A stretch of 42,271 bases of DNA from Candidatus Omnitrophota bacterium (GTDB lineage Bacteria; Omnitrophota; Gorgyraeia; Zapsychrales; Zapsychraceae): the NCBI GenBank assembly GCA_020429915.1, contig JAGQKV010000027.1, forward strand, positions 1-42,271, written 5' to 3'. Of the stretch, positions 7,126 to 31,694 are shown piece after piece. Positions within the stretch are counted from its first letter, which is position 1. Each line of letters starts with the position of its first letter. The notes beneath the pieces are model-generated. The model was not told where the DNA came from, ran no database searches, and worked only from the letters and a program-made list of their open reading frames with translations. A program made the position numbers and the translations under genes.

Positions 7126-7218
7126 GAAGAAGCATTTGAAACATTCGAAGCGATTTTATTGTCCGCTCTGACCGTGCGCGTCTGATCTAAGCTGAAACAT
7201 AACCCCTTGATTTCATTA

Positions 7219-7902: not shown

Positions 7903-10900
7903 CGGAACGGAACGCACACTCAGAAAGTTTATTTCGACGGTGACCGTCGTGTGTTTCATGACGGTCAACGCCGTGCCGTTTCCCGGGATGCCGGTCTTTG
8001 AAACGCGGGAGGCGGCTGCGGAGAGTGTACGGGTGCCGATGCCGGATCCGGATTCGATCTTCGCCGACGGCTTTGAGTCCGGGGATGCCGTTCGCTGGTC
8101 CGACGCGCTTGATGTCGACCGGGCCGAAGAGGACCCGGTCACAGATGTGGCGCTTTCGCCCACCCGCGGCGCGGCCACGGTCAATCAAATGATCGTTGAT
8201 TCCGCACGGGCCTCCGAACGGGCGCAGGCACAGAGTGATTTCGTCGACGACGCGGTCATCGATCGGGCCGGCCGGCAGACCGACGACGTGTTTAACGCCT
8301 TTGATGATTTCTCCCGGGCCGTGAACAATCAATACGCCCAACTGGACCAGCTGTTCGCCGCGCACAACGATCTCTACTCTTATATTAACGGTCTGGACCG
8401 CGTGTCCGATCAGAATGCCATCGATTTCAACCGTCAGACCGACATCCTGGCCCAGCAGGTCGATCCCATGATCCAGCAGTCGCGCAACATGGCCAACCGC
8501 GCTACGAGCGTTGACCGTCAACTGGACAGTCTCTCAGACAGTATCAGCAAGGCCCGGATGTCCCAGGGGCCGGCCGGCTCGGCCGTCGCTCAATTGCGGC
8601 AATCGGTTGATGCCACCCGCCGCGCTTTCGGCGAACTGCAAGCCGCCGCCCAACATCAGGGAATAAAGCTGGGCGGACGTACCGGAGAAGTCGACGGTTT
8701 TCTCGACGGACTTTCCCGCAATGCCGATGATCTTGACAATTATATCCAACAGCAGGACGCCTATCTCGGCCGGGGTAAGGGTTTCCTGGACCAGGCCCGG
8801 AACGCAGTCGGCCGGCTGAAAGATGAGGCCCAGGTTCAGCAAGCCTACTTCGAACAGGCGCGTGAGTTTTTCCGCGGCTCCAAGATCACCTCCGACAATA
8901 ATTTTACACCCGTCAACAATCCGGCCGGCATCATGCGTGCCGGCGAACATGTCAACGAAGACGATTTGTGCCAAAGTCTCGACGAAAATTGGTATTCCTT
9001 CGAAACCTGCGACGACAAGTGCGATTACCGGCCGTGCCTGTATAAAGGCGGCCGGGGGTATACCGCCTGTTACGAATGCCCGTCCCCGGACAGTGAGTCA
9101 TGCTATGACTACGGGATGATCCCGTTGTTGCATCCGTTCTGCGGGCCCGGAGGTTTCTGTCAACAAACACCCGAGATGTGGTGCGGTCCGCCGTACACGT
9201 TTACCGACAAGTACAAACAATCACAAACTTGCACGTTCTGCGCGATGCGAAAGGACGAATGCGCCACCAAAGGCGTGTCCGGCAGCGGGATGTGGTATCC
9301 GGCTTGCCAGGCGGCTTGCGCCAACACCGGCGGCAAATGCCAGTTTGACGGCTTTTACATGGAACCGGATATCTGGGGCCATACCGATACATTATCATGC
9401 TGGCGCTGCGAGCCGCCGCCACCGCCTTCGACCTGTGAGGACCTGAAGTGGGGCCACACGCTTAAGGCGGATTGTGATGCCAACTGCAACGCCCCGGATA
9501 TGTGCGTGCAAGGAATGTTCGAGATGCGCGCGGCCGACGAATATTTGCACCGGCTCGCGCGAAAGGCCGGTATGGATCCCGGTCGGCCGCCGGGCGGCGG
9601 TGATAACGGCGGACCGGTCGGACCGGGTCCGGAATCACCCGAAGGTCCGGGCGGACAACCCGGCGGTACTCCGGGCGGAACGCCCGGTGAAGGCGGACAA
9701 GCCGGCGGCGGCGGTTTTGCCCCCGGTCAGGGTCAAGGCTCCGGCGGCCGCGGCGGACAGGAAGTCCCCGGCGGTGAAGGACCGGACCCGACAGGAACCA
9801 AACCTACTCCTCCCGCCCCCGGCGGGACCTCCAGCGGCGGCGGAGCGACAACCGTCGGCGGCGGCGAAGGACCCCGTCCGACCGGTACACAATCCACAGG
9901 CACACCGGCACCGACCGGTGAAGGCGGCGGTACAACCACATCCGGCGAACAACCCGGCGGCGAGGAGCGTACTCCTCCGCCGACACCGAGCCGGCCCAAA
10001 CCGCCTGAATCCGCAGAGCGCCCGCAAAAGCCGGCCGGAACAAAGCCGGAACGGCCCACCGGGGTCAAGACGGAAAATCCCCCGCAAGTGGAACTGAAGT
10101 CGGAACCCACACCGACGCAGGAGGCTAAGGACCCGTGCGAAGGACGGCGCGCCTTCGAAACCCCGGCTTCGGACGAATCGGATCTGAAAAAGAATATGCG
10201 TTCCCGCATGCTGGAGGCGGCCCGCGGCGGCGCCGGGACCTTCCGGGAATTCCAAAGCAGCATTATGGATAACACCAATGCCTCCGACCAGGAAATTGCG
10301 GCTTATGGTGAGCTGATGAATGAACTCCAGGCATGGTCGAGCGATCCGTGCAACGGCCGTACGCGGGCTCCGGGGGGGACGTCTTCCGGCAGCGGCGGCG
10401 AGTCTCCGCAACCGACCCCGACCGAAACACCGGCGCCGACCAGCGAGCAACCGCGACCGACCGAAACGACCTCGCAGACACCGGCGGATCCGTGCGCCGG
10501 AAAACGTTCGTTTGCATCCCCGGCGGAAGGAGAGTCGGGCGACAAGCGGGCGATGCGTAATCGTATCATTCACTCAATGCGCGACGGCAGCGAATCATTC
10601 CGCGGATTTATCGAGTCCATGATCGGCGAGAATTCTACGGCCAATGAAATCGAACGGCGCCTCTTCGTGGAGTTAATTAAGGAATTGCAGGAATGGGCCA
10701 AAGATCCGTGCAATAACCGCCAGCGTGAAGCGGTTACCCCGACACGGGAAACCCCGTCCGCTCCGGCCCCCACGGCCGGCACCGGCACGCAAGGCGAGGA
10801 CCCGTGTGCGGGCAAGCGAACCTTCTTCCAGTCGCCGGACAATGAATCCGCCGGCAAGAAGGCGATGCGCGCACGCATGATCAATGCGATGCGCAGCGGA

Positions 10901-13900
10901 GCGGAGGCCTTCCAGACATTGCAAAGTGATGTGATGGACGGATCAAATTCATCCCAGGACGATATCAGAGACTTCGGGGAACTGATGCAGGAGCTGCGTA
11001 CATGGGCCAATGATCCGTGCAATCCCAGTTCGCGGGCCCGCGGAGGAACATCTTCCGGAGGCGGTTCCGAGGCCCCGCGGCCTACATCGACAACTTCGCC
11101 GCCGCCGCAAACCTCGCAACCGCGTGATGGCGCGACCACCGCGTCCCGTGCGCCGGACCCGTGCGCCGGAAAACGCGCCTTCGGCACGCCGCCCGCCGGA
11201 GAAGACCAACGCAAGACATCGCTGCGCCGCCGTTTCATCGCCGCGGCCCAGGACGGCGGGGATACCTTTAACACTTTCTATCAGCGGAATATGGAGAACG
11301 GCAGTGACGAGACCAAGCGTTGGCTGCGGGAATTGATGGATGAGGCCGCCTTGATGTTGCGCGACCCATGCTTTAACAAGAATGCGGAGTCACAAAACGC
11401 GACAGCCAGTCGTCCGCGATTGACCGAACAAGGGACCGAATACCTGGCCGCCGGCGGTTGCGCCAATTCACCGGGGCTGATCAACAAGGATTCCTGCGAA
11501 GGTTATTGCCGCTACCGCAACCGGGACAACGGACTGTCCACGGCCTGTATCCCGACGCTGAAGGCCCCTAACGGCGAGCAATGCTATGCCTGCCCCGGGA
11601 CACCGGAGGCAACGCACCCCGGACAACCCGGATGCTACCAGATAGGTAAAATGACAAAGGTGGGGTGCGAATCAATTTGCGAGAACAAGTGTGAAGGCGA
11701 CGGCACGGCACCGAACACCGAACAGTGCTGGCGCTGCAAGGCGGATGCTCAATGGACGCAGGCGCCGGAGACGCGTCAGGTCCCGCAAGAGTCTGAGGAC
11801 CCCAAGCCGGAAGAACGTGATCCCTACGCCAATCGCCGTACCCGCGACGGCCGGGTTGTCCCCACTTACGCGTCCCGCGGGGAAGAAATGACCGACGAGG
11901 ACCGCGCCAAGGCCGCGGCGCAATTAGCCGCGATGTTTGAAACAGGCCAACAGCAAGGTGGCGTGGCCGACGCCAATTACGAACAAACACGTGAGCAGTA
12001 CAACACCAACATCAGCATTCAAGAGCAGATCAAGGCGGAACAACGCCGTGAATGGCAAAAGATGGAGGAGAAATACGCGGAGTGGAACCGCCGGCATCAG
12101 GAATTTCTGGCGCAACCGACAGCTTACGAACAGTTTCTTATCGATAAGGCGGAAGAAGAACAACGGATTGACCGGGAGAAGGACGAATTGCGGGCGGAAA
12201 TCGGTTCCATCCAGGGCCGGATGCTCAATGAAATCCGTGAAGAGATCAAGGAGAACAGCGATCTGTATGATCCGTACATCCTCAAATATATCTCCGTCGC
12301 CGCCGAGATGCAGCATGAGACCCGTCGTCTGGAAGCGATGGCGATCCGCGGCATGATGATCGCACAGATGCGCATCAAGGCGATTGAACTCTACATGGAG
12401 CAGCACGCCGCGGAGCTGGAGGAAAAACCGTACCTCAAACGCTATCTCACCCGGATGAAACTGCGGGCGCAGCTGCAAGAGATCGAGAATCAGCAGACGA
12501 TCCTGGAGACCACACTGCTGGTGCGTGTCGGACTGTTGATCGACGTCATCGTGTTTCTGGCTACATTGGGCTCCAGTGCCGTCGGAAAGGGAATGATGGC
12601 CGCCGAAGAGGCCGCGATGCGCACCACCCTGGCGGCGGCCCGTTCACAGGCCGGTAAAGGAACGGCCTATGTTGTCGGGGAAGTGCTGGTGCCGCGCGTC
12701 GGGGAGATGGGCGCCGGGGAGGCCTTTGCCGCGGCCAACGCGCGATTCTGGGGGACGCAGGCCGCCCGGGAGACCGGGGAGGCCCTGACGACTTCGGCCG
12801 CCCGCAACGCGTTGACCACCGGTTCGACCGAGTTGGCGGGACGGGGTGCCAAGGAATTGGTCGAGGAAGGCGGCGAGCTGCTCGGCCGCGAGGGCGGCGA
12901 AGCGCTGGCTTCCGGTGCCCGTCGTGAAACCAGCGAGGCCCTGGCCCGCGAGCTCGGTGAGGAGGCGTCGGAGGAAGTGGTATCGCCGGGCGTGCGTGAA
13001 TTACTCGAAAATTGGACGCTGGATAACGACTTCATGCTGAAGATGAATATTCTGGCCAAGGGCGAGGCCGAGGCCATGGCATCTTTGTTACGCCGTGGCG
13101 CGGAACTGGGGATGTCCAAAGCGGAGATGGCGGCGTACAGTTCGCTGGATGATTTGATGCGCGAAATTACCGAACGCGGCGGCGGCAAAATCGTCGAGTA
13201 CGCGACACGCTTCGGTCCGGGCGAGACCTTGACGCAGGAAGTCGTGGGTCTTGGCGTGCGGATCCTAAAAGGTTCCACGAAAGAGGGGGATGCGGCCCTG
13301 TTGCGCCGGCTGGTGCAGGATTTCGAACGCCAGGGGCTCAATTTCTTCGATGAGCTGGCCCGATCCGGAACGCTCGGCGACGACGGCTTCCAGCAGCTCT
13401 TCCTTAAAGAAGGCATCGATACGATGCGGAATTTCTTCGTCCGCAACGCAGGCTCCGATGCCGCCGAGGGCACCGTCCGACTGACGGCTAATCAGGTGCA
13501 AAATATTCTCAATAATGCAACGGTGCGCATGACCCAGGAACAAATCGAGGCCGTTGGGCGGATGGGGATTCAGGCGGCGGAAGACGGTACGGTGCGTTTG
13601 ACCCAAGAACAAATGCGTCGGTTCGGACTGGAAGGTGTGGAAGCCGCGGCCGATGGGACTGTCAAACTGACCCAGGGACAACTCAATCAAATGTTGAATC
13701 GGACCGGACAGGAAGTCACCGAAGCCACGGTCCGGATGACGGAGCAGGAGCTTGCCGCCATGGGCCGGTTAGGTCTGCAAGCTGCCGAAGACGGCACGGT
13801 CAAACTGACCCAACAGCAGATGCAATCCTTCGCGCGTGAAGGAATTGAAGTTGCCGCCGACGGGACGGTAAAGTTGACACGTAACCAAATCAATCAGCTT

Positions 13901-16900
13901 TTGAATCAGGCGGGACGGGAGGCTTCCGAAGCCACCATCCGCATGACCCAGCAGCAACTCGATGACATCGCACGCATCGCCGGCGGGCAGCTCGACGAGA
14001 CGTTAATATTGTCCAAGAATCAGATCAATCAACTGCTGAGTCAGGCCGGGGATGCCGCCGCGGGTATGGGCGATGAAACCGTCCGGCTTACGCAACAGCA
14101 ATTAAAAAATATGCTCGGTTCAGGCAACCGCCAGGGGGCCGTCGACCTGGCCCGGACGTTGACGGGCCGGGAGTTGGCCGAGGCCGCGGAAACCATGTCC
14201 GCGCGCGAACTCGCCGAGTTGGCCGAAACGCTCACGACCCGTCAGCTCGCCGAGATGGCGGAAACCATGGGCCCGCGGCAGATGGCGGAGTTGATGGAGA
14301 CCTTGTCCGAACGCAAAATGGCCGAACTGGCCGAAACGTTGACGGCACGTCAATTGGCGGAGACAGCCAAGACGATGACCGGCCGTGAGCTGGCGGAGAT
14401 GGCGGAAACCCTCTCCGGCCGGCAATTGGCGGAAATGGCGGAGACCATGTCATCACGTCGGTTGGCCGAGATGGCGGAGACCCTGACGTCACGGCAGTTG
14501 GCCGAGATGGCCGAAACCCTCTCCTCCAGGCAGTTGGCCGAGATGGCCGAGACCATGACCGGAGCCCGCTTGCAGGACTTCCTTAAGACATTATCGCCGG
14601 CGCAACTGGCGGACGCGACCAAGACATTGACCTCACGCGAACTCGCGGAGATGGCGGAAACGATGACCACCCGTGAACTCGCGGAGATCGCCGAAACGTT
14701 GTCCACGCAACAACTGGCCGAGATGGCGGAAACGCTGTCGGCCCGGCAACTGGCGGAGATGGCGGAAACGTTGAGCGCCCGTCAAATGGCTGAACTGGCT
14801 GAGACCCTGACATCACGTCAGCTGGCTGAACTGGCTGAAACTCTGACGTCGCGTCAACTGGCGGAAATGGCGGAGACGTTGTCGTCGCGTCAACTGGCAG
14901 AGATGGCCGAGACATTGTCGTCCCGTCAGCTGGCGGAGATGGCCGAGACGCTGTCCGAACGTCAAATCGCAGAACTTGCCGAGACATTAACGGAACGTAA
15001 CCTTCCCGAGCTGGCCCGGACGCTGACCAGTCGTGAGCTGGCCGAACAAGCCCCGACGCTGACGGGGGCCGCGCTGCAGGACGCGCTCAAGACACTGACG
15101 CCGGCGCAACTGCAGGACCTCACCCGGACCATGACCTCACGCGAATTGGCCGAGGCGGCCCGCACATTATCGTCCCGGGAATTGGCGGAGATGGCGGAAA
15201 CATTGTCGGCGCGGCAATTGGCGGAGATGGCGGAAACATTGTCATCGCGGCAGTTGGCCGAACTGGCCGAGACATTGACGTCGCGTCAACTGGCCGAGAT
15301 GGCCGAAACCTTATCATCGCGACAATTGGCGGAGATGGCCGAGACATTGACGTCGCGTCAACTGGCGGAAATGGCCGAGACCATGACGTCGCGTCAACTG
15401 GCCGAGGTGGCCGAGACGATGACCGGCGCGCGTCTGCAGGACTTCTTAAAAACTTTGTCCCCGGCGCAACTGGCCGACGCGACCAGGACGTTGACATCCC
15501 GCGAATTGGCGGAGCTGGCTGAAACGATGTCGGCCCGCGAGTTGGCGGAGATCGCCGAGACGTTGTCGACGCGTCAGTTGGCGGAGATGGCGGAAACGCT
15601 GTCCTCGCGCCAGTTGGCGGAAATGGCCGAGACATTGTCGTCCCGTCAACTAGCGGAGATGGCCGAGACGATGACCGGCGCACGTCTGCAGGATTTCTTA
15701 AAGACCTTATCACCGGCGCAATTGGCGGATGCCACCAAGACATTATCGTCGCGTGAGTTGGCAGAGATGGCCGAGACGATGACCGCGCGCGAATTGGCGG
15801 AGATCGCCGAGACGTTATCGACGCGTCAATTGGCTGAGATGGCGGAAACGCTGTCGTCACGCCAGCTGGCGGAGATGGCTGAGACATTGAGCAGTCGTCA
15901 ATTAGCGGAGATGGCGGAGACGATGACCGGCGCGCGGTTGCAGGACTTCTTGAAGACCTTATCGCCGGCACAATTGGCCGACGCGACCAAGACGCTGACG
16001 TCGCGGGAGTTGGCGGAGATGGCGGAAACGATGTCGGCCCGGGAGCTGGCGGAAATAGCGGAGACGCTTTCATCGCGCCAATTGGCGGAGATGGCTGAAA
16101 CGCTGAGCAGTCGTCAACTGGCGGAGCTGGCCGAGACGTTGTCGGCGCGTCAACTGGCGGAGCTGGCCGAAACGATGTCGGCACGGCAGGTGGCCGAGCT
16201 GGCCGAAACACTGACGGCACGCAACATGTCGGAATTAGCCGAGACCCTCGTCGGACGGGGCTTTGCCGAACAGGCGGAGACGCTCACCGGCGCGGCGTTG
16301 CAGGATGCATTAAAGACGCTGACACCGGCGCAACTGCAGGATCTGACGCGGACAATGACCTCCCGCGAGTTGGCCGAGGCGGCGCGTACGCTGACCAGCC
16401 GCGAGTTGGCGGAAATGGCCGAGACACTCACCTCACGGCAGTTGGCGGAGATGGCCGAAACGCTGAGCAGTCGTCAACTGGCGGAGATGGCTGAGACCTT
16501 GTCGTCACGCCAACTGGCGGAGCTGGCCGAAACGTTGTCGGCGCGCCAATTAGCGGAGCTGGCCGAAACGATGGGTTCACGGCAATTGGCGGAGCTGGCC
16601 GAGACGATGACCGGTGCGCGGTTGCAGGATTTCTTGAAGACATTGTCGCCGGCGCAGCTTGCCGATGCGACCAAGACGCTGACTTCCCGCGAATTGGCGG
16701 AGATGGCGGAAACGATGAGCGCGCGCGAATTAGCGGAGTTGGCGGAAACGATGTCGGCCCGCGAGTTGGCCGAGATGGCGGAAACCTTATCGGCGCGTCA
16801 GTTGGCGGAGATGGCAGAGACGATGAGTTCGCGTCAGCTGGCAGAGATGGCCGAGACGATGACCGGTGCCCGCTTGCAGGACTTCCTGAAGACGTTATCG

Positions 16901-19135
16901 CCGGCCCAATTGGCCGACGCCACCAAAACACTGACCGCACGGGAATTGGCCGAGCTGGCCCCGACGCTGTCGAGCCAGCAAATGGCCGAATTGGCGAAAA
17001 CTTTGACGGCCCGCGAACTGGCGGAGATGGCCGAAACCATGAGCGCGCGCCAACTGGCCGAACTGGCTGAGACCATGACGTCACGTCAACTCGCCGAAGT
17101 TGCCGAGACGATGACCGGCGCGCGGCTGCAGGACTTCCTTAAGACACTATCGCCCGTCCAATTGGTGGACGCGACCAAGACGTTAACCGGACAACAGGTC
17201 CGCGAATTGGCCGAGACGATGACATCGCGCGAGTTGGCCCAAATGGCGGAAACCTTGACCGAACGCCAATTGGCCGAACTGGCCGAGACCATGTCGGAAC
17301 GCCAACTGGCCGATTTGGCCAAGACCGTGGCTGAACGGAATTTGATGGAAGAGCTCGGCGAAACCTTGACCGAAACGCAGATGGCGCGGTTGGCGGAAAC
17401 ATTATCGCCGTCGCAGATCGCTCAGGTCGGCGACGTCTTGCTCGGCAAGGAGGCCACGAATCTTACCGAGACATTAACGGAACGTCAACTGGCTCAACTG
17501 GGTGAAACCTTAACCATCGAGCAGATGGAAAAACTGGCTTCCCAGGTGACCGGTTCCGCCGGACGTGAGTTGAGTGAAGATGTCGTCGGTGTCGGATCCA
17601 GAGAGGTCCTGGAAAATATGACGTTCGAACAGATGATCGCGCGTATTCAGACGCGAAATATCATTGAGACGACCGAGGCCCTTACCCGGCGGGCATTGGA
17701 ACTGGGTGCTTCCAAGGCCGAAGTCGCTGCGGCCTCGGCCAATGATCGGTTGCTGCAGTTGGTCCTCGAAAAGGAAGGGCTCAATGTGGTGAGTTCTTCC
17801 TACGCGCGTGAAATCATGGCCATCAGTACGCGTGTCTTTTCCGGAAACGCCACCGCCGCCGACCGTGCCGCATTGCAAAATATGATGGAGGCCTCAGCTT
17901 CACGCGGTATGAATTTCTTCGATGAACTGGCCCGGTCGGGTACCGCCAGTCTGGAAGAAGGCTTCCAGCCCGTTATCAACGAAGGCGCGGTCGAGGTCCT
18001 GGAGGTCTTTGCCAAGGCCGGTGTTCAGCAGGGTAGCGGGCCGGTGGTCAAATTGACGAGCCGTCAGGCCGCCCAACTCGGCGAGACGCTCACCGCCGAG
18101 CAGATGTCCAAACTCACGCAGCAGTTGGGAACCGGTCAGACCACAAATCTTGGCGAGACGTTGACGCAAAGCCAACTGCTGGAAATCACGCAACAGCTCA
18201 CCCCGCAGCAAATGAGTTATTTCGCGGAGACCTTGAGTCTGAATCAAATCAAACAAGCGGCGGTCACAATGACGCCGGCGCAGGTGTCCGAGGCGGCGAA
18301 GACACTGACCAGCCGCGAAATCGCGCAATTGGCGGAGACGTTGACCGAGAAACAAGCCAGAGGGCTGTCGGAAACGATCGTCGAACAAAGCGTGGCCGAT
18401 CTCGGCAAGACCCTGACCGCGCAGGAAATGACGGCGGTGACGGAAACATTCTCACGACGGCAGATCGCTGCGCTGGCCGAGACGCTGACCGAGTCGCAGC
18501 TTAAAGATGTCACCGAGGTCATCGGCGGCAATGCCACCGGATCATTGACGGAGAAATTTACCACGCAGGAATTAAAGAATATTGCCGAAGCCCTCACCGG
18601 AGAACAACTGGAGCGGCTCGTTCAGAACGTGGGAGACGATACCGGTATGGCCGTGCTGGAGCACGTGACCGGCCTCGGGTCGCGTCAGGCCCTGGAGAGA
18701 ATGCCGGCGAATCGCTTTATGATGGAGCTGTTGGCCAAAGTCGAAGACAATGCCGTTGAAGCCCTGAGCCAGGCGGCCCGCGAGTCCGGCGTGCCGGACG
18801 CGGTGATCCGCGCGGCCTCCAAGACGCGTAATCCCGTCGAGGAGTTGGCCACGGCCGTGGCGCGCGCGAACAATCAGGAGATTGTGACCAGTTCATCCGC
18901 CCGTGATCTGATGGCCCTGTCCACGCGGATCATGCAGGGCACCACGAATGAATTTGAAGAGGCCTTTGTGCAGCGCGCCATCCGTGAGGCAGAAGCCCGC
19001 GGCGCCGATTATTTTGAGGAACTGGGACGCAAGGTCGTTGTCTCGGGAGAAGAAGGCATTGAGCAGGTCCTCAATCCGGACCTGATCAATCAATTGCGTC
19101 AGACCGCCATCCAAAAGGGATGGGTGACACCATAA
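7895..19135 (+). CDS. Giant (3746-residue) multi-repeat surface protein
   Basis: The start ATG overlaps the upstream stop region (ATGACTAG), so translation is probably coupled. Order of regions by residue: 8-45 hydrophobic export signal; 55-69 IFADGFESGDAVRWS, a motif of secreted proteins; ~110-330 coiled coil; ~359-543 cysteine-rich; ~561-744 Gly/Pro/Thr-rich linker; 746-1161 four helical modules each bracketed by DPC cysteines; ~1189-1285 second cysteine-rich module, shared with the next gene; ~1366-1540 long charged coiled coil; ~1541-1565 hydrophobic segment; 1696-1858, 3230-3380 and 3590-3746 three copies of one helical domain; 1860-2085 23-residue repeats; 2086-3153 89 copies of a 12-residue repeat; ~3384-3576 a diverged second 12-residue array. 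No enzyme motif is seen. A structural, adhesive or cell-contact role is inferred. No known family covers the repeats as far as I can tell. Confidence 0.93.
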   Translation: MTSGTERTLRKFISTVTVVCFMTVNAVPFPGMPVFETREAAAESVRVPMPDPDSIFADGFESGDAVRWSDALDVDRAEEDPVTDVALSPTRGAATVNQMIVDSARASERAQAQSDFVDDAVIDRAGRQTDDVFNAFDDFSRAVNNQYAQLDQLFAAHNDLYSYINGLDRVSDQNAIDFNRQTDILAQQVDPMIQQSRNMANRATSVDRQLDSLSDSISKARMSQGPAGSAVAQLRQSVDATRRAFGELQAAAQHQGIKLGGRTGEVDGFLDGLSRNADDLDNYIQQQDAYLGRGKGFLDQARNAVGRLKDEAQVQQAYFEQAREFFRGSKITSDNNFTPVNNPAGIMRAGEHVNEDDLCQSLDENWYSFETCDDKCDYRPCLYKGGRGYTACYECPSPDSESCYDYGMIPLLHPFCGPGGFCQQTPEMWCGPPYTFTDKYKQSQTCTFCAMRKDECATKGVSGSGMWYPACQAACANTGGKCQFDGFYMEPDIWGHTDTLSCWRCEPPPPPSTCEDLKWGHTLKADCDANCNAPDMCVQGMFEMRAADEYLHRLARKAGMDPGRPPGGGDNGGPVGPGPESPEGPGGQPGGTPGGTPGEGGQAGGGGFAPGQGQGSGGRGGQEVPGGEGPDPTGTKPTPPAPGGTSSGGGATTVGGGEGPRPTGTQSTGTPAPTGEGGGTTTSGEQPGGEERTPPPTPSRPKPPESAERPQKPAGTKPERPTGVKTENPPQVELKSEPTPTQEAKDPCEGRRAFETPASDESDLKKNMRSRMLEAARGGAGTFREFQSSIMDNTNASDQEIAAYGELMNELQAWSSDPCNGRTRAPGGTSSGSGGESPQPTPTETPAPTSEQPRPTETTSQTPADPCAGKRSFASPAEGESGDKRAMRNRIIHSMRDGSESFRGFIESMIGENSTANEIERRLFVELIKELQEWAKDPCNNRQREAVTPTRETPSAPAPTAGTGTQGEDPCAGKRTFFQSPDNESAGKKAMRARMINAMRSGAEAFQTLQSDVMDGSNSSQDDIRDFGELMQELRTWANDPCNPSSRARGGTSSGGGSEAPRPTSTTSPPPQTSQPRDGATTASRAPDPCAGKRAFGTPPAGEDQRKTSLRRRFIAAAQDGGDTFNTFYQRNMENGSDETKRWLRELMDEAALMLRDPCFNKNAESQNATASRPRLTEQGTEYLAAGGCANSPGLINKDSCEGYCRYRNRDNGLSTACIPTLKAPNGEQCYACPGTPEATHPGQPGCYQIGKMTKVGCESICENKCEGDGTAPNTEQCWRCKADAQWTQAPETRQVPQESEDPKPEERDPYANRRTRDGRVVPTYASRGEEMTDEDRAKAAAQLAAMFETGQQQGGVADANYEQTREQYNTNISIQEQIKAEQRREWQKMEEKYAEWNRRHQEFLAQPTAYEQFLIDKAEEEQRIDREKDELRAEIGSIQGRMLNEIREEIKENSDLYDPYILKYISVAAEMQHETRRLEAMAIRGMMIAQMRIKAIELYMEQHAAELEEKPYLKRYLTRMKLRAQLQEIENQQTILETTLLVRVGLLIDVIVFLATLGSSAVGKGMMAAEEAAMRTTLAAARSQAGKGTAYVVGEVLVPRVGEMGAGEAFAAANARFWGTQAARETGEALTTSAARNALTTGSTELAGRGAKELVEEGGELLGREGGEALASGARRETSEALARELGEEASEEVVSPGVRELLENWTLDNDFMLKMNILAKGEAEAMASLLRRGAELGMSKAEMAAYSSLDDLMREITERGGGKIVEYATRFGPGETLTQEVVGLGVRILKGSTKEGDAALLRRLVQDFERQGLNFFDELARSGTLGDDGFQQLFLKEGIDTMRNFFVRNAGSDAAEGTVRLTANQVQNILNNATVRMTQEQIEAVGRMGIQAAEDGTVRLTQEQMRRFGLEGVEAAADGTVKLTQGQLNQMLNRTGQEVTEATVRMTEQELAAMGRLGLQAAEDGTVKLTQQQMQSFAREGIEVAADGTVKLTRNQINQLLNQAGREASEATIRMTQQQLDDIARIAGGQLDETLILSKNQINQLLSQAGDAAAGMGDETVRLTQQQLKNMLGSGNRQGAVDLARTLTGRELAEAAETMSARELAELAETLTTRQLAEMAETMGPRQMAELMETLSERKMAELAETLTARQLAETAKTMTGRELAEMAETLSGRQLAEMAETMSSRRLAEMAETLTSRQLAEMAETLSSRQLAEMAETMTGARLQDFLKTLSPAQLADATKTLTSRELAEMAETMTTRELAEIAETLSTQQLAEMAETLSARQLAEMAETLSARQMAELAETLTSRQLAELAETLTSRQLAEMAETLSSRQLAEMAETLSSRQLAEMAETLSERQIAELAETLTERNLPELARTLTSRELAEQAPTLTGAALQDALKTLTPAQLQDLTRTMTSRELAEAARTLSSRELAEMAETLSARQLAEMAETLSSRQLAELAETLTSRQLAEMAETLSSRQLAEMAETLTSRQLAEMAETMTSRQLAEVAETMTGARLQDFLKTLSPAQLADATRTLTSRELAELAETMSARELAEIAETLSTRQLAEMAETLSSRQLAEMAETLSSRQLAEMAETMTGARLQDFLKTLSPAQLADATKTLSSRELAEMAETMTARELAEIAETLSTRQLAEMAETLSSRQLAEMAETLSSRQLAEMAETMTGARLQDFLKTLSPAQLADATKTLTSRELAEMAETMSARELAEIAETLSSRQLAEMAETLSSRQLAELAETLSARQLAELAETMSARQVAELAETLTARNMSELAETLVGRGFAEQAETLTGAALQDALKTLTPAQLQDLTRTMTSRELAEAARTLTSRELAEMAETLTSRQLAEMAETLSSRQLAEMAETLSSRQLAELAETLSARQLAELAETMGSRQLAELAETMTGARLQDFLKTLSPAQLADATKTLTSRELAEMAETMSARELAELAETMSARELAEMAETLSARQLAEMAETMSSRQLAEMAETMTGARLQDFLKTLSPAQLADATKTLTARELAELAPTLSSQQMAELAKTLTARELAEMAETMSARQLAELAETMTSRQLAEVAETMTGARLQDFLKTLSPVQLVDATKTLTGQQVRELAETMTSRELAQMAETLTERQLAELAETMSERQLADLAKTVAERNLMEELGETLTETQMARLAETLSPSQIAQVGDVLLGKEATNLTETLTERQLAQLGETLTIEQMEKLASQVTGSAGRELSEDVVGVGSREVLENMTFEQMIARIQTRNIIETTEALTRRALELGASKAEVAAASANDRLLQLVLEKEGLNVVSSSYAREIMAISTRVFSGNATAADRAALQNMMEASASRGMNFFDELARSGTASLEEGFQPVINEGAVEVLEVFAKAGVQQGSGPVVKLTSRQAAQLGETLTAEQMSKLTQQLGTGQTTNLGETLTQSQLLEITQQLTPQQMSYFAETLSLNQIKQAAVTMTPAQVSEAAKTLTSREIAQLAETLTEKQARGLSETIVEQSVADLGKTLTAQEMTAVTETFSRRQIAALAETLTESQLKDVTEVIGGNATGSLTEKFTTQELKNIAEALTGEQLERLVQNVGDDTGMAVLEHVTGLGSRQALERMPANRFMMELLAKVEDNAVEALSQAARESGVPDAVIRAASKTRNPVEELATAVARANNQEIVTSSSARDLMALSTRIMQGTTNEFEEAFVQRAIREAEARGADYFEELGRKVVVSGEEGIEQVLNPDLINQLRQTAIQKGWVTP
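10130..11382 (+). repeat. Four DPC-bracketed helical modules inside the giant protein
   Basis: Four modules begin at 10130, 10487, 10799 and 11156, each with DPC(A/E)G(K/R)R. About 71 residues later each ends in a second DPC followed by N or F. Between the cysteines is a charged helical segment (MR-x-R-x-I/M ... F ... GELM-x-EL-x-x-W). Gly/Thr/Pro-rich spacers of varying length separate the modules. The paired cysteines probably close each module with a disulfide, consistent with export. Confidence 0.85.
13472..14140 (+). repeat. 23-residue (69-bp) LTxxQ repeats in the giant protein
   Basis: About ten units have the pattern T-V-[RK]-[LM]-T-x-x-[QE]-[LIM] followed by a Gly/Ala-rich stretch ending A-A-x-D-G or similar. 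Six of the units are exactly 23 residues; others vary by a few residues. They run directly into the 12-residue array and share its T-[LM]-T-x-x-Q-L core. Confidence 0.85.
14150..17353 (+). repeat. 89 contiguous 36-bp (12-residue) repeats in strict register
   Basis: Consensus unit: A-E-T-[LM]-[ST]-[SA]-R-[QE]-L-A-E-[MLI]. The first unit starts at 14150 and the last full unit ends at 17353, exactly 89 x 36 bp. All nine marker sub-units (TGA-[RA]-LQD) start at distances that are multiples of 36 bp. Codons vary widely between units while the residues are kept, showing selection on the protein. Position 5 (S/T) and position 8 (Q/E) form a helix capping box, so each unit probably begins a short helix. 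Confidence 0.95.
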
Positions 19136-19137
19136 GA

Positions 19138-22100
19138 ATGAAAAATAAAATAAACATCTATTTGCTGACATTGGGCATGTTGTGTCTGCCGGCCGTCGTG
19201 CAGGCACAGGTTTCCGATCGGATGCAGAACCGGTTCAACAACGCCGTCAATCAAGGACAGCGCGGAATCGACGGGCTGCTCAGTGAAATCGTGTCTATGC
19301 CCGACGGGCCGAGCAAAGATTGGCAGATGCGGCAATTCGGCGAAGCCTACCAAAAGGCTCAGGAAGACTTGGCCCTGCCCGGCCAGGAGGCCGCGCGACG
19401 GGCTCGCGATCAACAGCGCGCCCAGGAAGAACGGGAACGCCGGCGCAATAAGGACAAGGAAGGCGAAGAAGGCGGCGATAATAACCAGGGCGGTAATCAG
19501 GGAGGCAACCAAGGCGGTAATCAGGGTGGTAATCAGGGCGGCGGCACCGGCGGTGGCGGCGCTTCATACACCGATTTTACCGATCTGGAAATTGTTACCG
19601 ATCCGTGGGGACGCATTATCGAAATCAAGGAAAAGGAAACTCCTCCCCCGACGCCTCCGCCTGACCCGAACAATCCCAACCAGCCGCAACAACCGCCGCA
19701 ACCGCAGGGTCCGGAAGAACCCGGTGACGTTCCGGAGTTGCATGAATTTGACGCCGATAAGGACGGACAGTTGACGGCTTCCGAACTGGAACATTGGCGC
19801 CGGGCTTGGGAAGACTGGATGAAGAAAAAGGAAGAGTGGGATAAAGAACAGCAGAAGAAAGAAGAGGAAGGCCAGGGCGGCGGACCCGGCGGTGGTCCCG
19901 GCGGCGGTGGCGGCGATGATGACGGCGACGACGGTGATGATGACGACGACGCGACACGCATGTTCCGGCTCAATTGCTGGTACTGTAAGGATATGCCGTT
20001 GCAGCATCAATGCGAGGACGGTTTTATCGGCGGGTGCACGCCCGATCCGTGCGAAGGTGTGCGCGAGTGCTGGGAGTGGACCGAGACCGCCGTTGACGGG
20101 TCCACGGTCACCTGCCACAGCTGCGACGAGAAGGATGTGGATCCATGTGAACGTTTCCAGATGACCAGCAATTCCAACTGTGATAATCAGTGTCCTGAAG
20201 GCGCGGCCGTTTGTGAAGAGGTCCGGATTGATCCCGCGACCGGCACCATTCGCGGGCAGTCGGCGATGCGTGACGACCTAAAATGTTACCGCTGCAAGGA
20301 CATCACCGAGGGGTGCGTGGAAGCGGACATGATGGATCAGGACTCCTGCCTGGATTATTGCCACGGTGTCGGTGAGTGTGTTCCCGGCGGCAAGGCGCCG
20401 AACGGAGAACAGTGCTACGAATGTCATGAGACTATCGATGACCGGAATTGTTATCAGATCGACAAGCAAACATGGATCGGGTGCAAGTCCCTGTGCGAAC
20501 AGGAAGGCGGGCGCTGTCTGGCCGACGGCCGCGCGCCGAATGGCGAAATGTGCTGGAAGTGTTACAACAAGTCGGAACTGGAAGGGTGCCTGCAATACGG
20601 ATACCTGGACGCCGACAAATGTTCCGATGAATGTCACGGTGTGGGCGAATGTTCGCCGTCGCTGCGGGCTCCGAACGGCGAGACATGCTATGAGTGTGTG
20701 AAGGACGACGAAAAAGGCTGCGTGCAAAGCGACCTGATGACCATCCGCATGTGCGAAAGCTATTGTATGGATGCGGGCGGACAATGTGTCCCGGGAGAAC
20801 GCGCGCCGAACGGGGAGCAGTGTTTCAAATGCGAGAATGAGACCGACGGTAAAGACTGTGCTTCGCAGGATAAATTCAACAAGGATACCTGCGACCAATA
20901 CTGCAAGGACATCGGCGAATGTCTGCCCGACGGTATCGCTCCGAACAATGAACCGTGTTTCTACTGCAAGGAAATCAGCGGCTACCAGCAAAAGTGCGGT
21001 TTGCTGGAGCTGGGTGTCGGCGGATGTCCGGGGACTTGTTCCGAGGACGAGGACTGCCGGACGGTCACCCTGGAAGATCAGACCGTTTGCCACAAGTGTT
21101 CCGTCAAGGAAACCGAAGACGACAGGTGCGAGGCGGCCGAAGCCCTGCCGGGTGACTGTCCGGGCAGCTGTTCGGAGGATGAGGACTGCGAGCCGAGTAT
21201 TCTGGCCGACGGAACCAAGTGCCACAATTGCCATCCTAAAGAAGATAACTGTGAAGATTACGGATTTACCGAACAATGTCCGCAGGGGCAAGTGTGCCAT
21301 CCGGCCGCAACTTTGTCGGGCAAGGAGTGCTGCGAATGCCGGCCGGAGATCATCAAAGATCCGTGTGAGCAGGCCGAAGCGCTGCCGGGAGATTGTCCGG
21401 GGAGCTGTTCGGCGGATGAGAACTGCGAGCCCAGTATTTTGGCGGACGGAACCCGTTGTCACAATTGTGTGGAAAAGGAAGCGTGCGAAAAGGCCGAGGC
21501 GCTGCCCGGCGACTGTCCCGGCAGCTGTTCATCCACGCAAACCTGCGATCCGAGTATCTTGCCGGACGGGACCCGCTGTCACAATTGCATCGATAAGCAT
21601 CCGTGCGAAGTAGCAGATGTGCTGGCCGGGGATTGCCCGGGAACATGTTCGGCGGACCAGGAGTGTGATCCTTCGATCCTGGCCGACGGGACCCGGTGCC
21701 ATATGTGCCGGGAAAAACCCGATCCTTGTTTGGATGTCCAGTGTCCGGGGAACACAGACTGTCAGACTTACGAATGTGTGGACGGTGATTGCATCGGAAC
21801 GAACAAAGAAGGTTTCTGCGACGATCAGAATAAGTGCACATCCGGCGATCAGTGTTCCGCCGGGGAATGCCGTGGGGCGCCTGTCGAGGTGCCGGCAGCA
21901 ACGCAGTGTATGTCCTACAGCTGCGATCCGGCCGTGGGTATCAAACAGGAGCCGAAGGCCGGAAGCACCTGTGACGACGGCGATCCGTGTACCGGCGGGG
22001 ATGCCTGCCAGCAGGACGGCAGCTGCCGCGGGCGGCCGATCACCGGATGCGATTCGGACTGTGAACGTGTGCTGCCGGGCAGTACCGGCGACGCGGGTTG

Positions 22101-25100
22101 CGGGGGCAAGTGCCCGTCGGAATTGTGCGAGAAGACTCCGGTCTACGGCGCGAACAACGCCACCGGTATCGCCTACTATTGTTACAAGTGCAAGGACGAT
22201 CCGTGCGCGAACGTTCAGTGCCCCGCCTCCACGGATTGTGTCAACCATACCTGCGTGAACGGCGACTGTGTGGCGGAATACAAGGAAGGTCCCTGTGATG
22301 ACAACGACAAGTGCACCGGCAATGATCAATGTTCAGCCGGCGAATGCCGTGGGACGCCCGTTGAACCGCCGTCGGACACAGTCTGCATGAGCTACCGTTG
22401 TGATGCGGCTACCGGACAAATCAAGGAAGAACCCAAGGCCGGACAGTCCTGTGATGACGGCGATGTCTGCACCGGTCAGGACCAATGCCAGTCCGACGGA
22501 TCCTGTAAGGGGCGTCCGATCACCGGCTGCGCCAAGACTTGCGAAGAGGCTGATTTAAAACCGGGCGTTTGTCCTGGGGACTGCGATCCTTCTTCCAGCT
22601 GTTCGCCGTCCGATTTGCCGAATGGCACGAAATGTCATATGTGCTATGCCACGGATATTGCGGGAGATTGCCGGGCCGCAGGGATGGCTGACGGCGGCTG
22701 CCCGGGAATATGCGACTTGGGCGAAAAGTGTATTTCCGACAGGGTGAACGGGGTTCTTTGTCATGCCTGTGAAAAAGATGAATGTTACTACGCCTCGATG
22801 CAACCCGGAGGATGCCCCGGGACATGCGAGAGCAAAAAGGAATGTGAATCGGCCACCATCAGCGGACAGGAATGTCACCGGTGCGCTCCGCCCAAAGATG
22901 AAACCCAATGCAGCTACGGCTATGCTCCCGGTTCGTGCGACGGACATGCCTGCAGTTCCGATGAAAAGTGCTTTCAAATCGAAGGTCCGTGTTTTGCCTG
23001 CCGTAAGTGGACCTGTGATCCGCCGTTGATGGACGCCGACGGGTGTCCGCAATGTCATGCCAGCGGCGGCAAATGCTGGCCGATCATGACGCTGGCCTCC
23101 GAAGTCGGCAACGCGCCGCAGTGTTTCCGTTGCGATAAACCGCAAAGCTGTGAGGAGTACGGGCAATTGAGCGCCTGTTTCGAATGTCCGCCGGGGACGC
23201 TCTGCATCCCGGGCCGGACCATCGTCGATCAATACACGGGCGACGCCTTCCGCTGCGTGAACTGTTTGCGTCCGACCAAGGTTGAAGTGACCTACGTTAT
23301 CATTATTATCGAAACGCCGCGCTACCGCGTGGTGCTCGGGGATGACGGTAAAGAACGTTTCGAGCCGCTCTCCGTGATGGCCCTGGCCAAGCAGGAAGGC
23401 GGGAAAGTCATGAACACCGTCGGCGAATGGAAGAAGATCACCAGCATGTTCGGCGGCCTGAACGCGGGGCTCGGGCCGGCCGGTTTCGTGACTTCGGGAA
23501 ATATCAGTATGGACCAGCTGTCCGGAATTCTGCAAAGCCAGTTGGATAAAGGCGGCAGCTTCACCACCGGATGTTTCGACGATGCCATCGGTCAGGCCGA
23601 TCAAGACGCCGCGCAGCAGGGACTGCCGACCAGCGAAGACATGCAGGGGATCAGCAAAGAGCGCAAAAAGGATAAGGAACGCCGTGACAAGGAAGTCCTC
23701 AGCAAGGAACAGATGAAAGAGGCCGACGAGGCCGGTACGCCGGCGGTGACCGGTCCGATCGTGGCGTGCGGCAACGAAGGCCGCGAAAAGGTCTTTAAGA
23801 TCTACGATGCCGCCGGTCGGCTCATCGACACGGTCACCCAGGATATGTTGTCGATGAACCCGAATATCATTTCCGAAAAACTGAGCCTCGCCCAACACTT
23901 TTCCGACATATCGGTCCAATTGGGCGGCAAAGGGATCGCCGACTATGTGCAGCGTTTTACGGGGCTGCCGGTGCGCGAAATGCAAAGTTATGCCGCACAG
24001 ATTCAGAAGTACAAGAGCATGGCGGACAAGGCCGTGTCGCTGACGGAACAACGCAAGCGCGAGAAAGGCAAGAAGCGGGGTGACGAGCCGGAGGAAGAGG
24101 TCTTCCCGAACGATCCGCTTTATCAGGCGCCGGGTGAGAAAAAGAAGAAGAAACTGCTTGGCATCCTGGGCAGCGCCAAGAAGGCCGCGCCGATCACTAT
24201 CGGCAGCACCATGAAGATGGGAGGCGGCCAAACCATCGGCGGGGGATCGGACCGGGGGGGCAGTGAAGAAGAAATTAAAGATCAGTGGGGGCTGCATGAA
24301 ATCGGCTACACCCCGTGGACCGATCCCGACTCCGCCTGGAACGTTGTTCCGGCTACCGAACGTAATATCACTGTGGCGGTAGTCGACTCCGGGCTGGATA
24401 TGGGACATCCGGACGCGCCGGAGTTTATCTGGACCAACCCCAAAGAAATTCCCGACAACGGTGTGGATGACGACGGCAACGGATTTGTCGACGACGTTCA
24501 CGGCTGGAACTTCTTGACGGAAAGCCACGACTTTACGGACCGCCGCGGTCACGGAACCTTTGTCGCCGGAATCATTGCCGCCAAGACCAATAACGGTATT
24601 GGGATCGCGGGGATCAATCCGGGGGCCGTGATCATGCCGGTCGTGGTGGCCGATGAGGAAGGGGAGACGGACAGCTTGGCGATCTTCCGCGGGATCAACT
24701 ACGCGGTCAATCACGGGGCGCGCGTCATTAACGTCAGTCTCGGGGCGCCCGGCGTTTCCAAGATCGAACAGCTGGCGATTCAACGGGCGTATGATATGGG
24801 CGCGCTGGTGGTGGTGGCCGCCGGAAACACCAACGACGACATCCGCGAATTCGGCCCGTCGTCGTCCAAGCATGTTATCTCCGTCGGTCAAATCGATTAC
24901 AGCGGCGAGCGCAGTACTGTTTCCAGCCAGGGCGCGAATCTGGCCTTGCTGGCCCCGGGGGAAAAGATTTGGTCGCTGTGTTCGCGGGATACGAAGGATA
25001 TCAAACCTTCGATTATCGAGTTCGGCTATTATCCGCAAGACGGGACCTCCTTCGCAACACCGATGGTGTCTGCGACGGCTTCTCTTATTTGGGCGAAAAA

Positions 25101-25545
25101 CCCGGACCTGTCCAGTGATCAGGTCCGTCAGATCATCCTCGCGACTGCCACCGACATGAATGATCCCGGCTGGGACGGAATGACGGGCTACGGCTTGCTG
25201 AATGCGGCCGCGGCCATGCGGGCCTATGCCGACGGTTCGGTCACCGCGATGATCACCAATATCCGTGTTAACCGTGATGTCCGGGACAAGGTCATTTCAT
25301 TGGACCTCTACGGCTCGGTTCGCGGTGATGTCCGGGAGTACTTTATCGAGGTCGGTAAGGGCCAACGTGCCGATGATTTCAAGACGATCGCCGGGCCGTT
25401 GCGCGGGGAAAAGAGCTATGAGCTGATCGACCGGATTGACGTGGCCGAACATATGCGCGGCAGCCGCCACTGGATTCTGCGACTGAGGGTGATCGGCAGC
25501 GACGGTGAAGAACGGGTCGCTTCAACTTTATTCGAAATGCCATAG
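19138..25545 (+). CDS. Giant cysteine-rich secreted protein with C-terminal subtilisin-like (S8) protease
   Basis: This protein of about 2135 residues starts at ATG 19138, giving the signal peptide MKNKINIYLLTLGMLCLPAV then VQAQ; ATG 19120 is a 6-residue-longer alternative overlapping the previous gene. Layout: GGNQ low-complexity repeats (~115-140), Pro-rich linker, one EF-hand loop DADKDGQLTASE (205-216), an acidic Gly/Asp tract, then ~1100 residues with well over 100 cysteines in three repeat types, ending near residue 1380. A charged linker follows. The S8 domain (~1720-2035) has all catalytic residues: D1750 in VVDSGLD, H1805 in GHGTFVAG, N1897 in AAGN, and S1971 in GTSFATPM. A calcium-site-like DNGVDDDGNGFVDD is also present. 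About 100 residues follow the protease. It probably acts outside the cytoplasm and may process its giant neighbour (inference). Confidence 0.93.
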   Translation: MKNKINIYLLTLGMLCLPAVVQAQVSDRMQNRFNNAVNQGQRGIDGLLSEIVSMPDGPSKDWQMRQFGEAYQKAQEDLALPGQEAARRARDQQRAQEERERRRNKDKEGEEGGDNNQGGNQGGNQGGNQGGNQGGGTGGGGASYTDFTDLEIVTDPWGRIIEIKEKETPPPTPPPDPNNPNQPQQPPQPQGPEEPGDVPELHEFDADKDGQLTASELEHWRRAWEDWMKKKEEWDKEQQKKEEEGQGGGPGGGPGGGGGDDDGDDGDDDDDATRMFRLNCWYCKDMPLQHQCEDGFIGGCTPDPCEGVRECWEWTETAVDGSTVTCHSCDEKDVDPCERFQMTSNSNCDNQCPEGAAVCEEVRIDPATGTIRGQSAMRDDLKCYRCKDITEGCVEADMMDQDSCLDYCHGVGECVPGGKAPNGEQCYECHETIDDRNCYQIDKQTWIGCKSLCEQEGGRCLADGRAPNGEMCWKCYNKSELEGCLQYGYLDADKCSDECHGVGECSPSLRAPNGETCYECVKDDEKGCVQSDLMTIRMCESYCMDAGGQCVPGERAPNGEQCFKCENETDGKDCASQDKFNKDTCDQYCKDIGECLPDGIAPNNEPCFYCKEISGYQQKCGLLELGVGGCPGTCSEDEDCRTVTLEDQTVCHKCSVKETEDDRCEAAEALPGDCPGSCSEDEDCEPSILADGTKCHNCHPKEDNCEDYGFTEQCPQGQVCHPAATLSGKECCECRPEIIKDPCEQAEALPGDCPGSCSADENCEPSILADGTRCHNCVEKEACEKAEALPGDCPGSCSSTQTCDPSILPDGTRCHNCIDKHPCEVADVLAGDCPGTCSADQECDPSILADGTRCHMCREKPDPCLDVQCPGNTDCQTYECVDGDCIGTNKEGFCDDQNKCTSGDQCSAGECRGAPVEVPAATQCMSYSCDPAVGIKQEPKAGSTCDDGDPCTGGDACQQDGSCRGRPITGCDSDCERVLPGSTGDAGCGGKCPSELCEKTPVYGANNATGIAYYCYKCKDDPCANVQCPASTDCVNHTCVNGDCVAEYKEGPCDDNDKCTGNDQCSAGECRGTPVEPPSDTVCMSYRCDAATGQIKEEPKAGQSCDDGDVCTGQDQCQSDGSCKGRPITGCAKTCEEADLKPGVCPGDCDPSSSCSPSDLPNGTKCHMCYATDIAGDCRAAGMADGGCPGICDLGEKCISDRVNGVLCHACEKDECYYASMQPGGCPGTCESKKECESATISGQECHRCAPPKDETQCSYGYAPGSCDGHACSSDEKCFQIEGPCFACRKWTCDPPLMDADGCPQCHASGGKCWPIMTLASEVGNAPQCFRCDKPQSCEEYGQLSACFECPPGTLCIPGRTIVDQYTGDAFRCVNCLRPTKVEVTYVIIIIETPRYRVVLGDDGKERFEPLSVMALAKQEGGKVMNTVGEWKKITSMFGGLNAGLGPAGFVTSGNISMDQLSGILQSQLDKGGSFTTGCFDDAIGQADQDAAQQGLPTSEDMQGISKERKKDKERRDKEVLSKEQMKEADEAGTPAVTGPIVACGNEGREKVFKIYDAAGRLIDTVTQDMLSMNPNIISEKLSLAQHFSDISVQLGGKGIADYVQRFTGLPVREMQSYAAQIQKYKSMADKAVSLTEQRKREKGKKRGDEPEEEVFPNDPLYQAPGEKKKKKLLGILGSAKKAAPITIGSTMKMGGGQTIGGGSDRGGSEEEIKDQWGLHEIGYTPWTDPDSAWNVVPATERNITVAVVDSGLDMGHPDAPEFIWTNPKEIPDNGVDDDGNGFVDDVHGWNFLTESHDFTDRRGHGTFVAGIIAAKTNNGIGIAGINPGAVIMPVVVADEEGETDSLAIFRGINYAVNHGARVINVSLGAPGVSKIEQLAIQRAYDMGALVVVAAGNTNDDIREFGPSSSKHVISVGQIDYSGERSTVSSQGANLALLAPGEKIWSLCSRDTKDIKPSIIEFGYYPQDGTSFATPMVSATASLIWAKNPDLSSDQVRQIILATATDMNDPGWDGMTGYGLLNAAAAMRAYADGSVTAMITNIRVNRDVRDKVISLDLYGSVRGDVREYFIEVGKGQRADDFKTIAGPLRGEKSYELIDRIDVAEHMRGSRHWILRLRVIGSDGEERVASTLFEMP
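20313..22900 (+). repeat. Three families of cysteine-rich repeats in the protease-bearing giant
   Basis: Type A (about 20313-20985) repeats every ~40-45 residues, with C-x-x-Y/L-C ... G-x-C ... APNGE-x-C-[YFW]-x-C. Type B (about 20986-21720, again 22530-22900) has LPGDCPGSC ... C-x-[PS]-S-I-L-[AP]-D-G-T-x-CHNC, at least seven copies. Type C (21721-22050 and 22198-22530) is a long pair with C-D-D-x-[ND]-x-C-T-x-x-[DN]-x-C, resembling Dictyostelium-type (Dicty_CTDC) repeats. Type A also occurs in the upstream giant at 11459-11750. Confidence 0.8.
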
Positions 25546-30718: not shown

Positions 30719-31096
30719 ATGGGACTTGATGCCGTCGGAATCGTGAGTAAGGACATTCCCCGGACGATCCGGTTTTACGCGCTGCTCGGACTGGACTTGG
30801 AAGAGTGTGGAGGGTCCGGTCATTTTGAAGCGGCCACCGACGGCGGCATCCGGGTCATGGTCGATTCCGTCGACTTGATCAGGCAAATCCAGCCGGACTG
30901 GCAGGCCCCTTCCGGCAGCGGCATCACCTTGTGTTTTCTCCAGGAATCGCCGGCCGCGGTCGACGATCTGCATACCCGCATTCTCCAGGCCGGCTTCGAA
31001 TCCGTCAAAGAACCCTGGGACGCCTTCTGGGGCCAGCGCTATGCCACGGTCAAGGATCCCGACGGGAATCAGGTGGATCTCTTTGCTGCGCTCTAA
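30719..31096 (+). CDS. Second VOC-superfamily protein
   Basis: The 125-residue product has an excellent ribosome site (GGAGGAG) and lies 8 bp after the EF-hand gene. It opens VGIVSKDIPRTIRFYALLGL and closes ATVKDPDGNQVDLFAAL, where the final E/D-type ligand and DPDGN turn are the usual glyoxalase / bleomycin-resistance family features. It is clearly diverged from the first VOC protein. Substrate unknown. The operon appears to end here, followed by a palindrome and a T-rich stretch. Confidence 0.85.
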   Translation: MGLDAVGIVSKDIPRTIRFYALLGLDLEECGGSGHFEAATDGGIRVMVDSVDLIRQIQPDWQAPSGSGITLCFLQESPAAVDDLHTRILQAGFESVKEPWDAFWGQRYATVKDPDGNQVDLFAAL

Positions 31097-31681: not shown

Positions 31682-31694
31682 CTATTGCTATTCC

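Follow-up and report, generated by a model that had tools for sequence, protein, structure and literature searches.

The N domain of the membrane channel MgtE takes part in Mg2+ sensing, for which the CBS and membrane domains of MgtE are also needed. Canonical armadillo (ARM) solenoids, such as importin alpha and beta-catenin, are alpha-superhelices whose repeats each comprise three helices and about 42 residues. FliG, a cytoplasmic motor protein with ARM-like domains, is described as assembling into rings through a domain swap and as a distant homologue of MgtE (PMC7355467), and FlgY, a signal-peptide protein with an MgtE_N-type superhelix of four helices in 56 residues, is reported to form the E-ring around the flagellar MS-ring; according to the FlgY authors, ARM repeats stack either within or between molecules (PMC11870540). 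The window considered here, a stretch of 42,271 nucleotides from a Candidatus Omnitrophota bacterium (assembly GCA_020429915.1, contig JAGQKV010000027.1, positions 1–42,271), contains a giant open reading frame (ORF) whose C-terminal part carries a long array of 12-residue units with sequence and predicted-fold similarity to the MgtE N domain (MgtE_N).

The array resembles MgtE_N (PF03448; structures 2yvy, 2oux and 8gpv) in its 12-residue unit, in having one short helix per unit in a structure model, in its hydrophobic peaks and in a gapless alignment. It differs in extent and setting: in the membrane channel, MgtE_N makes up a single domain of 102 profile positions, whereas the giant protein has about 110 units, is probably exported and has no CBS or channel match. 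FliG is matched at the level of the predicted fold, although the giant ORF matches no FliG family in Pfam, and canonical armadillo solenoids share with the array the alpha-superhelix. FlgY likewise presents an MgtE_N-type superhelix as a structural scaffold in a signal-peptide protein, but its superhelix has four helices and it is described as acting by oligomerization (PMC11870540); the giant protein would place about 110 units in a single chain. Giant ORFs are reported to be common in Omnitrophota, and for some classes were proposed to be extracellular and adhesive; that account counts ORFs longer than 20 kb, whereas the present one, from the same phylum and also very large, measures 11.2 kb (PMC10066038). 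The fold itself is already known, and what is new is the scale, the setting and the differing C-terminus.

Extent and unit sequence of the array

The main array occupies 3,204 bp, or 89.0 × 36 bp, in frame with the single 3,746-codon ORF, which bears out the count of 89 twelve-residue units without insertion or deletion given in an earlier note on this DNA. Thr at unit position 3 is present in all 89 units, as is Leu, Met or Val at position 4, and Leu occupies position 9 in 80 of them. All 89 units are distinct as DNA and comprise 52 protein versions; a deviant unit pair (TGARLQDFLKT-LSPAQLADATKT and variants) recurs at units 12, 26, 36, 43, 50, 60, 69, 76 and 83. The array is acidic, with 179 Asp and Glu against 103 Lys and Arg and an isoelectric point (pI) of 4.6.

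A position-specific scoring matrix (PSSM) of the unit, which by construction places all 89 main-array units above the 99.9th percentile of 50 shuffles, found 17 further units when the rest of the ORF was scanned, about three of which could be chance matches at this threshold. Four lie in a tail directly behind the main array, 11 in a second stretch and two in an upstream region of mostly 23-residue repeats, and all those in the tail and the second stretch keep the 12-residue register. The 89-unit block stands as earlier delimited, but its end at 17353 is not the end of the array, being only a one-residue slip after which units resume at 17357. The units in register number 89, 5 and 16, and therefore 110 in total. 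The ORF and its repeat-bearing parts are as follows.

7895–19135 (11,241 bp), + strand: giant ORF of 3,746 amino acids, calculated mass 406 kDa, with a single stop codon, at its end
13472–14149, + strand: nine matches to TV[RK][LM]TxxQ, mostly at 23-residue spacing, a related, longer unit ahead of the main array
14150–17353, + strand: main array of 89 twelve-residue units, predicted MgtE_N-type superhelix
17357–17536, + strand: tail past the one-residue slip, five units in register, four of them above the PSSM threshold
18044–18619, + strand: second array, degenerate, 16 units in register, 11 of them above the PSSM threshold

Relationship to the MgtE N domain

The earlier note recognized no described repeat family in this unit, a claim that fails. 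Pfam MgtE_N matches the giant ORF in 21 stretches with an E-value of 2.5e-60 and 201.8 bits (cut-off 25.9), the best stretch aligning 97 residues with 97 profile positions. A new repeat family was rejected on this match, on the MgtE and FliG fold matches of the structure model and on the 12-residue period of ordinary MgtE_N domains. Over 56 genomes, PF03448 gave 65 matches, 13 within the giant ORF and 52 elsewhere (one per frame, in frames of 180–507 amino acids); two of the latter belong to the window's own genome, and their frames (471 and 466 amino acids) look like ordinary MgtE.

Twenty of the 52 outside matches, two from the same genome and 18 from 17 relatives, were compared with the array. 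The autocorrelation of hydrophobicity at lags of 12 and 24 residues is 0.67 and 0.70 in these domains and 0.84 and 0.80 in the array, both having peaks at these lags, and it has the same sign in both at 18 of the 24 lags computed. Profile–profile alignment (hhalign) of the array with the 20 domains scored 44.2 over 77 gapless columns. On the autocorrelation and the profile comparison, the array unit is taken to be the 12-residue unit already built into MgtE_N.

The extent to which such scores could arise from composition was assessed on the first 30 units, which were column-permuted, shuffled and reversed. The original gave 76.1 bits with MgtE_N; of four column permutations, two gave 14.9 and 13.6 bits and two had no match, and the shuffled sequence had none. 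On these controls the MgtE_N score is inflated by composition and period, yet not explained by them. The array could instead be a low-complexity helical or coiled-coil rod, its MgtE_N match a by-product of composition and the 12-residue period, and three observations weigh on that side. The reversed 30 units still reach 33.2 bits, above the cut-off, which calls for caution; the real hhalign score is equalled by two of 300 column permutations (median 8.4), common descent and convergence being hard to tell apart for so short and repetitive a unit; and the best match among PDB sequences, 9e5c (E 1.5e-22), which was set aside, is to a repetitive protein unrelated to this one, with a bias of 181.8 bits. 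The real array nevertheless beats 298 of the 300 permutations, and in a first, smaller hhalign run one of 12 permutations came near the real score (43.4), the rest not exceeding 19.1 and the reversal 11.3. A period of 12 residues, moreover, fits no usual coiled-coil period (it would require 4.0 or 3.0 residues per turn), and the helix is broken in every unit of the structure model described below, so that a low-complexity rod is very unlikely.

Several other matches were regarded as products of composition: DUF3944 (28.2 bits, cut-off 24) and STAT_linker (24.4, cut-off 27) on the whole ORF, and E3_UFM1_ligase (27.5, cut-off 23.2), STAT_linker (27.2, cut-off 27) and PAS_10 (25.0, cut-off 22.1) on the 30 units. 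The reason for dismissing them is that unrelated families also score above their cut-offs with permuted and reversed arrays. PDB sequence matches of the array to CheC and to two beta-lactamases were set aside, as were the NCBIfam models SDE5640 (63.6 bits, cut-off 100) and SrfC_fam (19.8, cut-off 500), both below cut-off.

Family and fold, together with the acidity of the array, would also suit an element that responds to divalent cations, as the N domain of MgtE does. This is highly improbable: no CBS or MgtE membrane domain is among the eight Pfam families that match the giant ORF at E ≤ 10. The MgtE transporter model TIGR00400 stays below its cut-off on the ORF. No FliG family and no Arm family appear among the Pfam matches of the ORF, the likeness to FliG being one of fold only.

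Predicted structure

An AlphaFold2 model of 22 units, of moderate confidence, contains 22 helices of 6–10 residues each, and its best matches among solved structures (VIA-align) are MgtE (2yvy, 2oux and 8gpv) and FliG. An MgtE_N-type fold is, at the level of this model, a fairly secure assignment for the array. The solenoid of short capped helices that had been proposed from the sequence is thereby supported. A canonical armadillo repeat was rejected, as the model has one helix per 12 residues. A coiled coil would be a single long helix with a heptad or hendecad register; it was rejected on the strict 12-residue register and on the break in the helix in every modelled unit, in line with the earlier view that a simple coiled coil is unlikely.

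Each 12-residue unit would form one short helix, running from an N-cap at the Ser or Thr of position 5 to just before the invariant Thr at position 3 of the next unit. Leu and Met at positions 4, 9 and 12 would form a continuous hydrophobic core, with Arg7 and Glu11 on the outside. About 110 such helices would follow one another in a single chain, divided into a long block and a short one, compared with four in FlgY and about eight that fit Pfam MgtE_N; the superhelix is presumably right-handed, as in the family.

The same fold is consistent with an assembly module, in which the array or its ends would stack between molecules into a ring, sheath or fibre whose geometry is set by the number of units. 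FliG and FlgY have this type of superhelix, and their ARM-like motifs are described as stacking between molecules and driving ring formation (PMC11870540, PMC7355467); the model of the array matches the fold of both MgtE and FliG. Such assembly is rather unlikely, however, for about 110 helices in a single chain already bury their core inside that one molecule, and copies of an additional domain flank both blocks and would be expected to cover their ends.

Sequence divergence between units

Between the units of the main array, the mean proportion of synonymous differences (pS) is 0.682 and that of non-synonymous differences (pN) 0.29. Since synonymous-codon shuffles of the array (n = 20) give a pS of 0.702 (standard deviation (sd) 0.009), close to the real value, the silent sites are nearly randomized and their history is almost lost. 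The earlier reading of varied codons with held residues as selection is borne out, and the pattern is a clear sign, at the level of the codons, that the array is old and under strong selection on its residues. A recent expansion at the DNA level was rejected on the same values. Selection for DNA diversity is unsupported, as repeated 20-mers are more frequent in the array (139) than in its shuffles (70 on average).

Modules of seven units, compared in 15 pairs, have a protein identity of 74–95%, a pS of 0.525–0.733 and a pN of 0.045–0.166; the three most alike (units 36, 43 and 50) have 93–95% identity with a pS of 0.525–0.636 and a pN of 0.045–0.082. Shared codons are slightly in excess of a column-aware shuffle at lag 1 (0.464 against 0.414, sd 0.018; reached by none of 300 shuffles) and at lag 2 (0.454 against 0.405, sd 0.019; reached by one of 300), a faint excess that fits a trace of tandem duplication. 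At lag 7 the excess is not significant, 10% of the column-aware shuffles reaching it.

Occurrence of the array in only one of 385 phylum genomes (E ≤ 1e-6) could point to an assembly or binning artefact. The longest exact direct repeat within the array is only 31 bp, which makes misassembly unlikely; in addition, all units differ, the frame is open throughout, the GC content is 0.62 against 0.61 for the preceding part of the ORF, and the N-terminal half of the protein has orthologues in other Omnitrophota. An artefact is thus extremely improbable.

Architecture of the giant protein

From its N-terminus, the protein consists of a signal-like segment, a Cys-rich domain, four domain copies with the motif DPCxGKR, a second Cys cluster, charged sequence and a hydrophobic stretch. 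The C-terminal part follows in the order flanking domain 1, mostly 23-residue repeats, 89-unit array with its tail, flanking domain 2, second array and flanking domain 3. The parts outside the arrays are as follows.

8969–9505, + strand: Cys-rich domain (residues 359–537), kept in six Omnitrophota orthologues, with most Cys columns invariant
10130–11383 (end approximate, by eye), + strand: four domain copies opening with DPC[AE]G[KR]R, with Pro/Thr/Gly-rich linkers between them
11459–11737, + strand: second Cys cluster (residues 1189–1281)
12515–12571, + strand: most hydrophobic 19-residue stretch (residues 1541–1559), Kyte–Doolittle mean 2.3
12935–13459, + strand: flanking domain copy 1, an orphan domain with three copies in the ORF
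17522–18025, + strand: flanking domain copy 2
18605–19132, + strand: flanking domain copy 3, the C-terminus of the giant ORF

The N-terminus has a basic start and a hydrophobic stretch and by eye resembles a Sec signal peptide, which suggests that the protein is probably exported. The hydrophobic stretch of residues 1541–1559 is a possible membrane segment. All Cys residues lie between residues 20 and 1281, with none in residues 1282–3746. The four DPC[AE]G[KR]R copies start at 10130, 10487, 10799 and 11156, and their region has no Pfam match at E ≤ 0.1. The three flanking domains match one another with E-values of 2e-23 to 2e-10, and their profile matches nothing else in the 385 phylum genomes; they stand beside the array blocks and are likely caps.

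Orthologues with a different C-terminus

The N-terminal 702 residues match seven of 56 genomes, the window's own and six others of the same family or order, and the Cys-rich domain occurs in the same seven of the 385 phylum genomes. In these six genomes the orthologous frames (L041–L046) encode 1,438–2,099 amino acids, the shortest ending at a contig end. The N-terminal region is found by phmmer in all six orthologues (E 6e-25 or better), but the array, residues 1282–2085 and residues 3154–3746 are in none of them at E ≤ 1. A blastp search with the giant protein misses L041, and a repeated one misses both L041 and L042; tblastn and phmmer find both and are relied on here. PF03448 is present in the six genomes on other contigs only.

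All six orthologues end instead in a conserved domain which, by eye, contains the kinase-like motifs GxGSTSxxY, DNHTGNYGF and VVLDPGG or variants of them. It comprises the last 270–280 residues of each orthologue (for example, L044:7356–8204) and includes a glycine-rich loop. No match to it is present in the window's genome, and, for the orthologues scanned, none of weight was found in Pfam or NCBIfam, nor was there one among PDB sequences; judged from its motifs, it is possibly a new kinase-fold family. The longest orthologue (L046:283–6579, 2,099 amino acids) has, by eye, an extra region before this domain, with no Pfam match at E ≤ 0.1.

The exchange of C-termini would suit a delivered effector, the C-terminal part being the payload of an exported modular protein that is exchanged for a kinase-like payload in the orthologues and has its effect in or on a partner cell. 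The N-terminal half and a neighbouring S8 subtilase are related throughout, whereas the C-terminus is kinase-like in six of six orthologues and an array in the window, and predatory or parasitic lifestyles have been proposed for part of the phylum (PMC10066038). Against this, the array and its flanking domains span about 2,000 residues, unlike a compact payload, and the kinase-like reading was made by eye, with no sequence match of weight behind it. A delivered effector is accordingly unlikely.

An S8 homologue is encoded on the same contig as the giant gene in all seven genomes, and in five of the six others it is the next large frame; in L042 a 144-residue frame (8356–8788), by eye glyoxalase-like, lies between the two genes. 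S8 homologues are present in 17 of the 56 genomes, including one of the same genus that lacks the giant gene. Comparison of ORFs of at least 250 amino acids in 11 stretches around S8 homologues elsewhere returned one known orthologue, that of G053 (L116); the others gave only weak local matches to parts of the giant protein, inside the protease frames (L106, L108 and L112). In two genomes of the same genus (93 and 95% complete), neither the N-terminal region nor the array region nor the kinase-like domain was matched.

Among the 385 phylum genomes the array is found at E ≤ 1e-6 in its own genome only; at E ≤ 1e-3 an array profile also matches 41 positions in G364 (3.8e-4), within a 456-residue frame that is by eye an ordinary metabolic enzyme. 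Region 13100–14509 compared with 56 relatives matches its own genome and, weakly, G029 (19% identity, E 2.3e-4), which has no blastp match to the whole giant protein. Two peptide patterns, able to detect near relatives only, matched 85 stretches in genome contigs of 84,980 species and 146 in viral contigs, none of which was confirmed. Plasmid matches to the array (28 records, 22 from Klebsiella) are all below 60% identity; the 20 listed have 17.7–33.9% identity and are annotated as hypothetical (17), collagen-like (1) or not at all (2), and were taken as composition matches. No report of a long MgtE_N array was found among the titles and abstract openings listed in searches of the open-access literature.

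Proposed role

We favour a reading in which the C-terminal part is a giant, extended MgtE_N/FliG-type superhelix that is exported and serves as a surface scaffold or adhesive rod, at odds slightly better than even (about 0.55). The protein would leave the cell, with its Cys-rich N-terminal half holding or cross-linking it; the three orphan-domain copies would cap the ends of the blocks; and the array, standing where the orthologues have their kinase-like domain, would act on the cell surface as a long, elastic scaffold or an adhesive rod. A bolder version, put forward tentatively, casts the array as a single-chain counterpart of the FliG and FlgY oligomers: an exported molecular spring of about 110 helices, perhaps tens of nanometres long, in the position that the kinase-like domain has in other members of a modular family of secreted Omnitrophota proteins. 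It may reach or hold partner cells, or act on them.

The array suggests that the MgtE_N/FliG superhelix, of which only short stacks are known, can grow naturally to about 100 units, and its near-consensus units would be directly useful in protein design and in measuring the mechanics of the fold. A modular family of probably exported proteins, with a conserved Cys-rich front, differing C-termini and a subtilase neighbour, is also indicated in the Omnitrophota, an uncultured and partly host-dependent phylum.

Neighbouring genes

The giant ORF overlaps or adjoins a gene on either side.

7207–7902, + strand: MORN_2-repeat protein, the end of which overlaps the start of the giant ORF by 8 bp
19120–25545, + strand: Cys-rich protein of 2,141 amino acids with a C-terminal S8 subtilase domain, which overlaps the giant ORF or, from the next Met, abuts it

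No flagellar family was found among 18 neighbouring ORFs scanned (for two of them, among the best 25 families). The Cys-rich front of the S8 protease gene contains 120-bp tandem repeats at 21355–21650, corresponding to Cys modules of about 40 residues. Farther along the window are a large ORF of 984 amino acids at 37253–40207 with no Pfam match at E ≤ 0.1, a glyoxalase-family ORF at 30719–31096, and a large ORF of 1,268 amino acids at 32356–36162 with DUF2341 and a LamG-like domain. An ORF of 230 amino acids at 31674–32363 contains four HTH_17 stretches, an unusual number of excisionase-type helix-turn-helix motifs for a small protein.
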